DNA of 32,751 bases from an uncultured Lachnospiraceae bacterium. Lineage in GTDB: Bacteria > Bacillota > Clostridia > Lachnospirales > Lachnospiraceae. The position numbers and the translations under genes are program-made. The notes beneath the pieces are model-generated. The model did no database searches. It was given only the letters and a program-made list of their open reading frames with translations, and was not told the origin of the DNA. Positions 19,451 to 27,097 of this stretch are shown piece by piece (the stretch's first letter is position 1; the number at the start of each line of letters is the position of its first letter). The DNA lies in NCBI GenBank assembly GCA_947566705.1, contig CANOLA010000033.1, positions 1 to 32,751 on the forward strand, written 5' to 3'.

Positions 19451-19461
19451 TTTAGTATAAT
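19433..19461 (+). promoter_or_regulatory. Promoter for the HAD gene
   Basis: TTGTAT (19433-19438), a 17-base spacer and a perfect TATAAT (19456-19461), across the sigF stop. The predicted start near 19468 coincides with the first hairpin of the family II element. Confidence 0.7.
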
Positions 19462-19464
19462 AAA

Positions 19465-19527
19465 TGTGTCAGGTTTTCTGTAAAAACCTGACATGCAGCA
19501 TCGGCAAATTTAGCATGGGCTGATATT
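19465..19527 (+). repeat. Family II structured leader element, copy 1 (HAD gene)
   Basis: Hairpin 1 pairs TGTCAGGTTTT (19467-19477) with AAAACCTGACA (19483-19493). The 15-base block CTGACATGCAGCATC (19488-19502) is identical to the clpB leader. Hairpin 2 pairs ATCGGC with GCTGAT, one G-U pair, within TGGGCTGATATT (19516-19527). It occupies almost the whole 5' leader. Confidence 0.75.
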
Positions 19528-19545
19528 ACGGAAAGGGGAAAGAAT

Positions 19546-20310
19546 ATGGGGAAACACCTGAATAAAGCGGTATTACCGGAAAATTACAAAAATTATGTAT
19601 TTGACCTTTACGGAACACTGGTGGACATCCGCACAGACGAGACCAGGCAGTTCGTATGGGGAAAACTGGCGCTTTTTTTCGGCTATTACGGGGCGCATTA
19701 TGAACCGGAAGAATTGTGCAGGCGTTATGGGGAAATTGTCAAAGAGCAGGAAGGAAAACTAAAAAAAGTACTGGACATAAAGCGGCAGGATTCACATGAA
19801 TCTTCTCCGGAAATTGAGATTACCAGTGTATTTTTGCAGTTATACAGGGACAAGGGAATAAGCGCGGATGAACAGCTTGCGGTTTACAGCGGACAGCTGT
19901 TTCGGGTGCTTGCCACAGAGTATATCAGGCTTTATCCCGGAACCAGGGAAATGCTTTCCCATCTGAAAACACTTGGAAAGAATATTTATCTGCTGTCCAA
20001 TGCGCAGAGGATTTTTACGGCTTATGAGATGAAAGACCTCGGAATCAGCTGCTATTTTGATGATATTCTGATTTCATCCGACTACAGGACAAGAAAGCCG
20101 GATGAACAGTTTTTTAAAATCCTGGTGCAGCGCCATTCGCTAAATCCTGCGCAGTGCCTGTTTGTCGGAAATGACAGCAAATGTGATATAGCAGGGGCGC
20201 AGAGTGCCGGAATGGATACATTTTATGTAAAATCCAACATATCCCCGGAGAATGACGAAACGGAAGAAGCAAATTATATCGTGAATAAATTTTTTGAGTG
20301 GGAGGTTTAA
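19546..20310 (+). CDS. HAD-superfamily hydrolase-like protein
   Basis: A 254-residue protein of the haloacid dehalogenase fold. Motif I is FDLYGTLVD with nucleophile Asp20; the second position is Tyr22, not the Asp seen in most HAD phosphatases (D-x-D). Tyr at this place occurs in L-2-haloacid dehalogenases and some uncharacterised relatives. Motif II is the Ser of YLLSNAQ, motif III the Lys of RTRKPDEQFF, and motif IV FVGNDSKCDIAGA. The substrate cannot be named; phosphatase, dehalogenase-like or regulatory roles are all possible. AAGGGG lies before ATG 19546. Its leader is a family II structured element with its own promoter. The gap to ldh is about 95 bases with no clear terminator. Confidence 0.85.
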   Translation: MGKHLNKAVLPENYKNYVFDLYGTLVDIRTDETRQFVWGKLALFFGYYGAHYEPEELCRRYGEIVKEQEGKLKKVLDIKRQDSHESSPEIEITSVFLQLYRDKGISADEQLAVYSGQLFRVLATEYIRLYPGTREMLSHLKTLGKNIYLLSNAQRIFTAYEMKDLGISCYFDDILISSDYRTRKPDEQFFKILVQRHSLNPAQCLFVGNDSKCDIAGAQSAGMDTFYVKSNISPENDETEEANYIVNKFFEWEV

Positions 20311-22026: not shown

Positions 22027-24237
22027 ATGACAGGTAGTGCAAATCCGATCGACAGTTTTAGCTATGAATTTAAAAAGGGTCTGCTTGGGGGAAAGAAATT
22101 TTCGAACAGGCTTGCCGTTTTTGTCTCCCGCTTAGAGGGCGAGGGATTTATGCGTGATGCATCCAGACTCAGCCAGTATACCGTTTCTTTTAATATACCA
22201 ATTAAAATGGTAAGAAGTGTATCTGAACAGATTATAGAGAATCAGAAGGTTCTGCAGATTGCATATAATAAGTACAATACGCACAGCGGAACAGAAGAAT
22301 ATGCAGAAATCGTGGGTATTGATGACTGCGATAAATGGATTCGGCTGATCAACGATACAAGAGCTAAATACAAGGAACAGGAAGAAGCAGAAGAAGCGGA
22401 AGCCGCACAGAGGCGCCAGCAGAAGAAACAGGCTGCCGAGGATGCCAAGAGGGCAACAATTGAAGAGAGTGCCCAGAAGGCAGCAGTGCAGGCGGAAGAT
22501 GCTGCAAGAAGAGCCGCAGAGCAGGCCGCTGCACAGCGTGCCGAGGAAGAGGAGGCTGCACAGGCAGAAGCAGCTGAAGCGGCACGCCGTGCTGCAGCAG
22601 AAGAGGCGGTCCGCAGGGCGGCTGAGGAAGTTGCAAGAAGGGCAGCGGAAGAGGATGCGGCAATTAAGGCAGCAGAAGAAGCTGCACAGCGTGTTGCGGA
22701 GGATGAAGCGCTCAGAATGGCGGAAGAGGCAGCACAGAGACTGGCAGAGCAGGAAACCCGCAGGATGGCGGAAGAAGCTTCCAGAAAGTCAGAGAATGAT
22801 GCTGCGCGTATGGCAGAAGAAGCTGCACAGCGGATATCTGCGGAAGAAATGGCACAGCGTGCCGCTGCTGAGGAAGCAATGCGCCTGGTAGCGGAGGAAG
22901 CAGCAAAACGCGCTGCTGCTGCCGAAGCACAGAAGAGGGCAGCCGAGGAAGAAGCTGCAAGCAGAGCCGCCGAGGAGGCAGCAAGAAGAGCTGCAGAAGA
23001 ACAGAGGGCAGTAGAGGAAGCGCAGCGGGAAGCAGCAAAACGTGCTGAGGAAGAAGCCAGAAAGCGTGCGGCAGCCGAAGAAGCAGCACAAAGAAAGGCG
23101 GCGGAAGAAGAAGCACAGCGTGCCGCAGCGGAAGAAGCAATGCGGCTTGCAGCCGAGGAAGCAGCGCGCAGGGCCGCTGAAGAGGAAGCAAAGAAGCGCG
23201 CAGCTGCTGAAGAAGAAGCAAAACGCGCAGCCGAAGAGGCGAAGAAACGTGCAGCAGCTGAGGAGGCGGCAAGACGTGCGGCAGCTGAAGAAGCAGCACG
23301 CAAGGCAGCCGAGGAAGCGGCAGTCCGCAGGGCGGAAGAGGAAGCCAGTGCACGTAAGGCCGCGGAAGAAGAGATTGCAAGAAAAGCTGAGGAAGAAGCA
23401 GCTCGCAGGGCTGCGATTGCAGAAGCTGCAATCCAGAGACTGGCGCAGCAGGAAGCGGACAGAAGAGCCGCTGCTGCAGGAGAGGCAGTTGTGCAGAATC
23501 ATACAGCAGCTGAAGCTGAAGAGAAAAAAGCTGCAAAAGAGAAAGAAAAGATGGCGATTGAAGAGATGGCAGCACAGGCACTTGCCGCACAGTCTGCAGC
23601 AGCAGTTGAAGTGGCAGAGCAGAGGACAGAAGCCGAAGAACCTGCAGCAAACCGCAGGACGGTAGAAGAGTTTGCTGCCAAGGCACTTGCAGCACAGGCA
23701 CTCGTAACGCAGGCAGTTGCCGCACAGGGATTTGTAAAGCAGAACACTGCAGAGGAAATGCCGAAGCAGGAAAAAGCCATGGAGCAGAGTACTGTTATGG
23801 AAGAACCGAAGCGCAGTGTGGCAGAGAGGATTCCGGAACAGGCTGCCATTATGGAAGAACCGGAGAGCAGGAAAGTGGAGGAAACACCAAAGGTTACCGT
23901 TACAGAAAGACCGGTACACAATACAGCAGAGGAACGGCCAAGACAGAGTCTTGTTGAGGAGGCAATGAAGCAGAGTATGCTTGAGGAAATGTCAAAGCAT
24001 ACAGCTGCAGAAAAGGCCCTAACCCGTCAGAAACCTGAAACCAGTACAGCAGAAGCAGATGTTCTGGAGACAGGGAAATTAATAAAGGAGGATCAGAAAA
24101 TGAGTACAGAAGACGGAAAGGTATCAGTAGAAGTCTTTAAGGAGAAACTGGATAAACTGGTACTGTTAAAGAATTCCGGACTGTTGTCAGAAGAAGAGTT
24201 TGCGGTAGAAAAGGCAAAGCTGCTCGCTCAGGTATAA
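22027..24237 (+). CDS. Long Ala/Glu/Arg-rich coiled-coil protein with SHOCT-like C-terminus
   Basis: A 736-residue protein I do not recognise as a named family. Residues 1-115 look folded ([20 protein letters not shown], later [20 protein letters not shown]). Residues of about 118-500 are low-complexity helix built of short Ala/Glu/Arg/Lys units such as [14 protein letters not shown], likely a very long coiled coil or single alpha helix, like the TolA middle domain. Residues of about 500-690 are more varied, rich in Glu, Ala, Thr and Pro. The last 35 residues ([20 protein letters not shown] and on) resemble a SHOCT domain, a short oligomerisation motif. No signal peptide or membrane helix is seen, so it is probably cytosolic. 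GAGGGG precedes ATG 22027. An internal Shine-Dalgarno and ATG at 24100 could make the SHOCT segment separately. A terminator follows. Confidence 0.85.
24084..24102 (+). promoter_or_regulatory. Internal Shine-Dalgarno and ATG inside the coiled-coil gene
   Basis: AAAGGAGG (24084-24091), eight bases, then ATG (24100-24102) in the frame of the long gene. It matches the strength of the strongest ribosome binding sites in the window, in a region whose other codons do not encode such a site. Confidence 0.65.
24100..24237 (+). CDS. Possible independent 45-residue SHOCT peptide (internal start)
   Basis: If translation starts at ATG 24100, a 45-residue product results, equal to residues 692-736 of the long protein: [10 protein letters not shown], then the SHOCT-like helix pair [25 protein letters not shown] segments typically oligomerise, so the short product could mix with or cap assemblies of the long one. 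This is inference from the ribosome binding site only. Confidence 0.5.
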
Positions 24238-24344: not shown

Positions 24345-24371
24345 TTAGCACTCTATATTGACGAGTGCTAA
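24345..24371 (+). promoter_or_regulatory. CIRCE operator (HrcA site) for clpB
   Basis: TTAGCACTC (24345-24353), nine bases, GAGTGCTAA (24363-24371): a perfect match to the CIRCE consensus bound by the heat-shock repressor HrcA. It overlaps the clpB -35 box. Confidence 0.97.
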
Positions 24372-24386
24372 CAATCGTGCTATTCT
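24358..24386 (+). promoter_or_regulatory. Promoter for clpB
   Basis: TTGACG (24358-24363), a 17-base spacer and TATTCT (24381-24386). The -35 box lies in the CIRCE spacer and right arm, so HrcA would block polymerase. The predicted start is near 24393. Confidence 0.75.
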
Positions 24387-24404
24387 TAGTGAAGAAACAG
24401 AGGT

Positions 24405-24482
24405 TGTGTCAGGTGTTTAGTGAAAGTCTGACATGCAGCATCAGCCCGTCTGCCAAAGGAAGGCTTTGAATGGACTGATGTT
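24405..24482 (+). repeat. Family II structured leader element, copy 2 (clpB)
   Basis: TGTCAG (24407-24412) pairs with CTGACA (24428-24433), extended by G-U pairs. CTGACATGCAGCATC (24428-24442) is identical to copy 1. Hairpin 2 pairs CATCAG (24439-24444) with CTGATG (24475-24480) in TGGACTGATGTT, which differs from copy 1 at two places; one turns a G-U pair into A-U. The loop is longer here (about 30 bases). Confidence 0.75.
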
Positions 24483-24502
24483 CACAAGAAGGAGGGCGTG
24501 CT

Positions 24503-27097
24503 ATGAACATACAGAAATTTACACAAAAGTCTATTGAAGCGATAAATGGCTGTGAAAAGCTTGCCTGTGACTACGGCAACCAGGAGATGGAGCAGGAACA
24601 CCTGCTTGTATCCCTTTTGGAGCAGGAAGACGGGCTGATTCCAAAACTGATTGAAAAAATGGAAATCCAGCTGGAACATTTTACAGATAATGCAAAAAGA
24701 AAACTTGCCGCAAGGGTAAAGGTATCCGGCGGTGAGCTGCGTGTAGGCCAGGCGTTAAATAACGTGCTGATTCATGCCGAGGATGAGGCAAAGGCGATGG
24801 GGGATGAATATGTTTCCGTGGAGCATCTCTTTTTAACCCTTTTAAAATATCCGAATCCGGCAGTGAAAGAGCTGGTCAGGGAATACGGGCTGACAAGGGA
24901 GCGTTTTCTGCAGGCGCTTTCCACTGTACGCGGAAACCAGCGTGTGACAAGCGATAATCCGGAAGCCACATATGATACGCTGGAGAAGTATGGTTATGAC
25001 ATGGTGGAGCGTGCCCGGCAGCAGAAGCTGGACCCGGTGATTGGCAGGGATGAGGAAATCCGGAATGTAGTAAGGATTCTTTCCCGTAAAACGAAAAATA
25101 ATCCGGTGCTGATTGGGGAACCGGGCGTTGGTAAGACGGCAGTCGTGGAAGGACTGGCACAGCGGATCGTAAAGGGGGATGTGCCGGAGAGTCTGAAAGA
25201 CAAAAAACTGTTTGCACTGGATATGGGAGCGCTTGTTGCAGGTGCAAAATACCGCGGGGAATTTGAGGAGCGGTTAAAAGCAGTGCTGGATGACATTAAA
25301 AATTCCGACGGGCAGATTATCCTGTTTATAGATGAGCTGCATACCATTGTGGGAGCAGGAAAAACTGACGGGGCGATGGATGCCGGGCAGTTGTTAAAGC
25401 CGATGCTTGCACGCGGGGAACTGCACTGCGTGGGAGCGACCACGCTGAATGAATACCGCGAATATATTGAAAAGGACGCTGCACTGGAACGCCGTTTCCA
25501 GCCGGTTATGGTGGATGAACCGACGGTGGAGGATACCGTTTCCATATTGCGGGGACTTAAAGACCGGTATGAGGTGTTTCACGGGGTAAAGATTACGGAT
25601 GCTGCGCTGGTGACAGCCGCCGTACTTTCCAACCGTTATATTTCCGACCGTTTCCTGCCGGATAAGGCAATTGACCTTGTGGATGAGGCATGCGCCATGA
25701 TTAAGACGGAACTCGATTCCATGCCGGCAGAACTGGATGAGTTAAACCGCAAGGTCATGCAGATGGAAATCGAGGAAGCGGCTCTGAAAAAAGAAACGGA
25801 CAGACTGAGCATGGACCGCCTTGCCAGTCTGCAGAAGGAACTTGCTGAATTAAAGGATGAACTTAGCAGCAGGAAGGCAAAATGGAACAGTGAAAAAGAC
25901 GCCGTGGATTCTGTCAGCAGCCTGCGTGAAAAACTTCAGAATATCAATGCGGAAATTGAGCAGGCAAAACAGAAATCTGATTATAACAGGGCAGCAGAGT
26001 TACAGTACGGGGAATTACCGAAACTGACAGAGCAGATAGAAATAGAAGAAAGAAAACTAAAGGAGCGTGACCTTTCCCTTGTACATGAAAATGTGACGGA
26101 TGAGGAAATCGCCCGGATTATTTCCCGCTGGACCGGGATTCCGGTCGCAAAGCTGAGCGAGAGTGAGCGGAATAAGACACTGCATCTGGACGAAGAACTG
26201 CACCGGCGCGTCATCGGGCAGGATGACGGTGTGACAAAAGTTACAGAAGCGATTATCCGTTCCAAGGCGGGAATCAAGGATCCGACCAAACCGATTGGTT
26301 CCTTCCTGTTTTTAGGTCCGACCGGAGTTGGAAAAACCGAGCTTGCAAAAGCACTTGCGGAAAGCCTGTTTGATGACGAGTCAAACATGGTCCGTCTGGA
26401 TATGAGCGAGTATATGGAGAAATACTCCGTTTCCCGCCTGATCGGGGCGCCTCCTGGATATGTGGGGTATGATGAGGGCGGTCAGCTGACGGAAGCAGTC
26501 AGAAGAAAGCCGTACTCGGTTGTACTGTTTGATGAGGTGGAAAAAGCGCATCCGGATGTATTTAACGTTCTGCTGCAGGTGCTGGATGACGGACGGATTA
26601 CCGATTCCCAGGGGCGTACGGTGGATTTTAAAAATACAATTATCATTATGACCAGTAACCTTGGTTCCTCCTGTCTTCTGGAGGGGATTCAGGCGGACGG
26701 AAGTATTGCGGCAGAAGCAGAACATGCGGTTATGGAGGAAGTGCAGGGGCATTTCCGTCCGGAATTTTTAAACCGCCTGGATGAAATCGTCATGTTTAAA
26801 CCTCTGGATAAGACCTGCATTGGAAATATTATTGGACTGCTTATGCAGGATTTGAACAGCCGACTTGCAGATAAGGAGATTCGTGTCGAACTGACAGAGG
26901 AAGCGGAGAGCTTTGTGACAGAGCACGGCTATGACCCGGTTTACGGTGCAAGGCCGCTGAAAAGATTTTTGCAGAAGTATGTGGAAACACTGTCTGCGAA
27001 GCTCATCCTGCAGGATGTGACAAGAGCCGGGGATACCATAGAAATAGGCGTATCAGGCGGTTCACTTGAAGCGCATGTAAAAGAAAATGCGAATTAA
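24503..27097 (+). CDS. clpB: ATP-dependent disaggregase ClpB
   Basis: An 864-residue AAA+ chaperone that pulls aggregated protein apart with DnaK. The N-domain is at the start (about 1-145), then AAA1 with Walker A GEPGVGKT near residue 205 and Walker B LFIDELHT. The coiled-coil M-domain (about 400-525), which marks ClpB rather than ClpC, is followed by AAA2 with Walker [11 protein letters not shown] from residue 605. Other marks are the pore loop [16 protein letters not shown] and the sensor region [19 protein letters not shown] at 24489-24495 sets ATG 24503. It is controlled by a perfect CIRCE operator and has a family II leader. Length is normal. I see no clear terminator before rarA. Confidence 0.97.

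Follow-up and report, generated by a model that had tools for sequence, protein, structure and literature searches.

Small interspersed repeats are common, and to our knowledge, as far as open-access PubMed Central reaches, none is known to settle at the ribosome-binding site in a fixed orientation. Mycobacterial MIRU units are, like the repeat described here, direct, sense-oriented repeats between operon genes, but they are coding and are not known to have a hairpin pair. The GTAG REPs and REPINs (PMC3733652, PMC3116915) are, according to the accessible parts of these papers, likewise short, palindromic, multi-copy repeats of patchy occurrence with GTAG at the foot of a hairpin, and they may give stop codons to flanking genes (PMC3733652); they have been reported from Proteobacteria, Cyanobacteria and Chloroflexi, with no mention of Firmicutes in the accessible text of PMC3733652. 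Pneumococcal BOX, RUP and SPRITE (PMC3049150, as far as its text was available) share with our repeat that they are small structured Firmicute repeats, probably non-autonomous and cotranscribed with genes; BOX, however, is modular with terminal inverted repeats, and the available text mentions placement at Shine-Dalgarno (SD) sequences for none of the three. Most TAACTGA repeats of Beggiatoaceae lie no more than several nucleotides upstream of the start codons of unrelated genes, and a translational role has been proposed for them; yet, in the accessible part of that report (PMC4679880), they are direct heptamer repeats rather than covarying hairpin pairs, and canonical ribosome-binding sites are rare there, whereas the SD sequence is kept at the loci analyzed here.

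We found no description of the present hairpin-pair repeat in open-access PubMed Central. Unlike the REPs, as they appear in the accessible text, it consists of two unlike hairpins in fixed order and lies mostly in one orientation at the SD sequence of the downstream gene, and most of its hosts lack a Y1 transposase; the exact REP tag GTAG is present in half of the copies, at hairpin 2 only, where two of its bases are able to form weak pairs. We consider it probable that the repeat is a small non-autonomous mobile element of some Lachnospiraceae that is targeted to, or kept at, ribosome-binding sites, where it may act through the RNA. It occurs twice in the window, by which we mean the whole stretch of 32,751 nucleotides that was analyzed, in the leaders of a HAD-family hydrolase gene and of clpB:

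19456 to 19461, plus strand: TATAAT (-10-like) box before the HAD copy, read from the sequence
19466 to 19494, plus strand: hairpin 1 of the HAD copy, by model match and folding
19497 to 19527, plus strand: hairpin 2 of the HAD copy, shortened by loss of its upper stem, by model match and alignment
19533 to 19538, plus strand: SD-like AAGGGG directly 3' of the HAD repeat, read from the sequence
19546 to 20310, plus strand: HAD-family hydrolase gene, 3' of spoIIAA-spoIIAB-sigF-like genes
24345 to 24371, plus strand: TTAGCACTC-N9-GAGTGCTAA in the clpB promoter region, which we take to be a CIRCE operator
24358 to 24386, plus strand: predicted clpB promoter, with -35-like TTGACG from 24358 and -10-like TATTCT ending at 24386
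24406 to 24434, plus strand: hairpin 1 of the clpB copy, by model match and folding
24437 to 24482, plus strand: hairpin 2 of the clpB copy, by model match
24489 to 24495, plus strand: SD sequence AAGGAGG directly 3' of the clpB repeat, read from the sequence
24503 to 27097, plus strand: clpB, disaggregase (TIGR03346, 1322 bits)

The open frame directly 5' of clpB (22027-24234) encodes 736 residues, is Ala/Glu-rich and repetitive, and has no NCBIfam match.

An earlier note on this DNA had described three elements common to both leaders, all of which we find: the 15-base block CTGACATGCAGCATC, exact at 19488-19502 (HAD) and 24428-24442 (clpB), TGTCAGG as its upstream arm, and a later arm (GGGCTGATATT, GGACTGATGTT). 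Within the window, the 15-mer with up to three mismatches has four matches where 1.05 are expected, and four of 100 shuffles were equally good, so that this is weak evidence. Across the whole genome, it occurs 44 times with up to two mismatches, compared with once for a reversed control pattern; judged by eye, many of these 44 lack hairpins and are chance matches. When the leaders are folded singly, that of the HAD gene exceeds shuffled sequences in stability (z -2.9), but that of clpB does not (z -0.5). The case for the element rests on the repeat family, not on folds of single leaders. The covariance model R1, built from an alignment of 18 copies (A1), assigns 79.7 bits to the clpB copy and 49.4 bits to that of the HAD gene, which is decayed and has lost the upper stem of hairpin 2; both copies are among the 18, so these scores are not independent. 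It had also been claimed that hairpin 1 sits at or just after the predicted transcript start in both leaders. This is plausible for the HAD copy only, where the predicted TATAAT box ends 4 nt before hairpin 1, whereas at clpB the predicted -10 sequence ends about 20 nt upstream; the TATAAT box stands at the same place in several orthologous HAD leaders without the repeat. In an alternative fold of the clpB leader (24400-24502), the 5' arm of hairpin 2 pairs with GGGCGTGCT, which adjoins the SD sequence; by eye, this arm is absent from the clpB repeat of G005, another repeat-bearing genome.

The complete repeat is about 87 nt long (about 80-90 bp). Hairpin 1, of up to 13 pairs, is followed by a short linker ending in GYAG and by hairpin 2, whose lower stem is separated from its upper stem by a 3'-side bulge; after these come mostly TTC(A/C)A, the SD sequence and the start codon. 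The bulge has 7 nt in 66 of 92 aligned copies, and the foot of hairpin 2 reads GTAG in 46 and GCAG in 35 (together 81 of 92). In A1, 97.8% of the cells pair and seven pairs have changed on both sides. The larger alignment A4, comprising 92 copies from 12 genomes, bears out the covariation that the earlier note had proposed: 26 of 31 pairs have changes on both sides, 96.7% of the cells are paired, and 403 cells carry double-sided changes compared with 73.7 in shuffles, while sliding the pairing partners by one to three columns lowers the paired cells to 31-44%. As A4 was fitted to the structure of R1, these counts lean towards the model, but we judge the covariation too large to come from model fitting alone. 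The repeat matches no known Rfam family: Rfam covariance models gave no match in the window at the gathering cut-off, and at E values up to 5 for five loci they gave four weak matches, none at the repeat. Some copies carry extra hairpins: in L027, L040, L070 and L152, GTCGTACATC with GATGTACGAC (or close forms) stands between or inside the two hairpins, and the extra hairpins of L139, L140, L145 and L146, from G005 and G010, are related to these.

Covariance-model searches yielded 23 matches in the genome of the window (G000; 3.41 Mb in 160 contigs, 84% complete) and between 5 and 31 in each of 11 other Lachnospiraceae genomes, all repeat-bearing genomes used being draft assemblies. With model R2, which was built from A4 and thus from copies of the same 12 genomes, the matches number 23 in G000, 11 in G005, 5 in G010, 30 in G018, 9 in G139, 27 in G216, 20 in G232, 31 in G247, 8 in G300, 8 in G305, 5 in G371 and 12 in G375; G168, which contributed no copies to A4, has one, and 12 repeat-free genomes chosen as controls have none. 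The occurrence is patchy. R1 matched five of 40 genomes around the window (its own included); 19 of 23 same-genus relatives have no match, and G009 has a single weak one. In the family, 19 of 397 genomes matched (own genome counted; strict filters, no more than 11 candidates scored per genome), and several single weak matches in this search resemble another repeat family. A class-wide draw matched in only two of 391 genomes under strict filters, G300 and the window's own, both Lachnospiraceae, so that a host range beyond the family is unsupported. An exact hairpin 2 pattern was found in 31 contig stretches, titled as metagenome-assembled genomes or assemblies of Lachnospiraceae, Agathobacter or Clostridiales, and in no viral contig, which speaks against a phage origin as far as this one pattern goes.

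From the match lists (90 and 67 lines), 157 copies were kept. Opposite-strand matches on the same palindromes and fragments with hairpin 1 only were left out, and tandem pairs whose second copy had been masked by overlap were completed, in part by their head-to-tail spacing; doubtful rows remain, such as L148 (inside a reading frame) and L066 (probably another repeat family). The first set holds 7 of the 8 R2 matches in G300, 7 of 20 in G232, 12 of 31 in G247 and 10 of 27 in G216; a later set adds the remaining G300 match, the eighth, as well as 20 places in G232, G247 and G216. Merging tandem copies resulted in 143 arrays, whose gene contexts were determined with a home-made gene caller.

The copies lie mainly in 5' leaders and have a strong orientation bias relative to the genes, both of which the earlier note had named as points to be checked. 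In 82 of the 143 arrays, the repeat is directly followed, on the same strand, by an SD sequence and the start codon of an open frame; the antisense control yields one array of 143, and 447 of 20,000 random positions in the same loci (2.2%) pass this test. The right-hand gene has the sense orientation in 112 arrays and the antisense orientation in 25, six arrays having no call, and the median distance from the end of the element to the start codon is 17 nt. Among the 20 later loci, eight pass the strict test and none on the opposite strand (3 of 5 in G232, 5 of 11 in G247, 0 of 4 in G216); four more G247 loci have, by eye, an ATG at a like distance behind a weaker SD sequence, and the G247 rate of 5 of 11 compares with 8 of 9 in the first set. 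In G300, all seven near-identical copies lie at an SD sequence in sense, and the eighth, more diverged match passes as well. Placement is poor in G305 and G375 (one of 14 arrays) and in G216 (3 of 10, then the later 0 of 4); once these three genomes are set aside, together with nine loci embedded in larger repeats, the test is passed by 78 of 109 arrays. The nine loci are all in G018. In six of them (L096, L099, L100, L109, L121, L128), the repeat lies within a roughly 400-bp intergenic repeat that seems to be bounded by CTATTCAG-like and CTGAACAGTTAC-like ends; in L102, L103 and L104, a palindrome of some 300 bp encloses it in its loop, and the palindrome arms differ among the three copies yet are complementary by eye, so that this looks like a larger structured repeat.

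The upstream side is often close as well. Of the arrays with a gene start within 45 nt, 57 of 86 have a same-strand preceding gene that ends no more than 80 nt from the element, and in 27 of these 57 the upstream stop codon borders on or overlaps the stretch covered by the element model, a few flanking columns being counted in that stretch. In at least five arrays, the upstream gene ends at a TGA that lies in the hairpin 1 loop; for genome annotation, this means that the repeat can supply the end of a neighboring gene.

In two genomes the copies are very alike: the seven compared in each of G300 and G232 stand before different genes at a median identity of 0.977 and are near-identical even in their loops, and from this near 98% identity before unrelated genes we conclude that the element spreads within genomes. 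The within-genome medians of the other ten genomes range from 0.63 to 0.91. Head-to-tail runs of as many as four copies also occur, the unit recurring roughly every 83-87 bp. Empty sites in related species were compared for 13 loci, of which five (rplT, plsX, spoIVA, flgK and ychF) are readable at both ends, and in all five the repeat stands at the 5' edge of the SD sequence. Among 24 rplT matches, 22 rpmI-rplT gaps were read; 19 of them measure 22-31 nt and mostly contain GTTAAGGAGG or a similar sequence, compared with 107 nt in G018, where the repeat lies between GTTAA and AAGGAGG. The right junction is at the 5' edge of the SD sequence for plsX, spoIVA, flgK and ychF as well, ychF holding hairpin 2 alone; at etfB, the native spacer seems to have been replaced by the repeat, and the remaining seven loci are too different. 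Sequence comparison shows that copies have spread within genomes and that most of them share one orientation and stand at, or close to, the 5' edge of an SD sequence; the SD sequence of the next gene is then on one side, and on the other is the promoter or else the end of the preceding gene. Two further rpmI-rplT gaps, in G437 (L356) and G441 (L373), contain other hairpin-bearing inserts with AAGGAG-like sequence on both sides.

Conservation drops sharply at both element ends; upstream, a trace of GTTCAAA in G000 resembles the tail of an earlier copy. The first 14 bases of 144 copies, compared with the reverse complement of the last 14, show no terminal inverted repeats (mean longest match 3.0, shuffled 3.16), nor do the boundary windows (3.61 compared with 3.65). 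No fixed-register direct repeat indicating target duplication was found in 105 single copies, which show a slight excess of short matches (4.35 compared with 4.10; none of 200 shuffles as high). Neither of these two MITE features, terminal inverted repeats and target-site duplication, is seen in these comparisons.

A link between stress genes, also suggested earlier, finds no support in the genes named and was rejected. The downstream genes named by NCBIfam or Pfam are clpB, the HAD hydrolase (no equivalog over the cut-off), murE, hydG, ptsI, gatA, spoIVA, rplT and an ornithine carbamoyltransferase-like gene (match below the curated cut-off); purD, atpC, etfB, plsX, ychF, pyk, pflA, thiD and flgK were named by eye from the sequence. 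We see no common theme among them, and many copies lie between co-directional genes. Within the genus of the window, the repeat was seen by eye in two of 26 clpB leaders read (of 27 full-length loci, L229 at a contig start being left out); among HAD leaders, it is present in one of 16 read. Besides G000 and G005, clpB, here named by eye, carries a copy of another subfamily in G371, which belongs to another genus.

On the RNA level, the predicted openness of the SD sequence in 71 leaders is 0.565 with the repeat, compared with 0.476 when the repeat is mononucleotide-shuffled (p 2.5e-6); replacing the repeat by native upstream sequence gives 0.509, which is not significantly different (p 0.067). 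This prediction indicates that the repeat tends to fold on itself and in general does not hide the SD sequence. Sequestration as a general mechanism is unsupported by these values, the competing fold at clpB being an exception. The two leader regions scanned contain no sense-strand terminator-like site, only one antisense match (19493-19467), and hence give no indication of an intrinsic terminator or attenuator. We propose that the RNA copy of the element would be a compact leader sparing the downstream gene, with two rigid hairpins ending where the initiating ribosome begins and leaving the SD sequence open. Serving as a passive leader or insulator between cistrons, it would probably tune how the mRNA of that one gene is processed and translated. 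The position at the SD sequence itself might result from a targeting mechanism or from strong selection.

The earlier note had offered a cis-acting RNA or a mobile structured repeat. A structured repeat in 5' leaders is what we find, and of the two options the mobile one fits better than a dedicated cis-acting RNA because near-identical copies precede unrelated genes, the occurrence is patchy and relatives have empty sites. That the hairpin pair is instead a true regulatory RNA, binding a protein or small molecule that controls the translation of a regulon to which spreading copies recruit genes, is favored by the very strong covariation, the kept 7-nt bulge and GYAG linker and the near-fixed distance to the start codon, as well as the recurrence at clpB in G000, G005 and G371; but the named downstream genes have no common function, 19 of the 23 same-genus relatives searched have no match, clpB has the repeat in only two of the 26 leaders of its genus, and the G300 and G232 copies are near-identical down to their loops. 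We regard this explanation as unlikely.

Less probable still are small neutral repeats inserted anywhere, whose position at the SD sequence remains because selection removed the other sites. Most copies of G216, G305 and G375, and the G018 copies inside larger repeats, do lie off SD sites, yet the near-identical G300 copies, and the diverged eighth, all lie at one in sense, the antisense controls yield one of 143 and none of 20, and the repeat often touches or overlaps the upstream stop codon (27 of 57 arrays). We give least credence to a REP-like element whose single-stranded hairpins are moved by a transposase of the IS200/IS605 type (Y1, RAYT). In its favor, 81 of 92 copies have GTAG or GCAG at the base of hairpin 2, GTAG being the REP tag (PMC3733652), and the absence of target duplication would fit; against this, PF01797 (Y1_Tnp) matches in only four of the 12 repeat-bearing genomes, yet in eight of 12 repeat-free genomes, so that such mobilisation is unsupported and the search names no mobilising protein, and the REPs of PMC3733652, in the accessible text, stand near where the upstream gene ends, while their spacing to the downstream gene varies. 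For the mobile element that we prefer, we tentatively suggest, as possible though doubtful, an insertion machinery that reads the SD region, as DNA or mRNA, and places the two-hairpin leader at its 5' edge in sense; the element could thereby spread through operons, leaving the downstream gene unbroken and rewiring translation gene by gene. Should insertion be targeted, one could study how a mobile element chooses its sites in a way that is new. Should selection account for the position, the repeat would be a portable RNA leader adopted by many unrelated genes in several genera, and its loci would offer natural leader swaps with which to measure the effect of structure adjoining the SD sequence on translation and mRNA processing.

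A different repeat has a hairpin resembling hairpin 2, with a like bulge on the 3' side. It is found at L066:1501-1566, L196, L199, L200 and L202, in the genome of the window and in G405, G381, G418 and G403, some of its copies having GTAACAGTTCAG-like and CTGAACTGTTAC-like ends.
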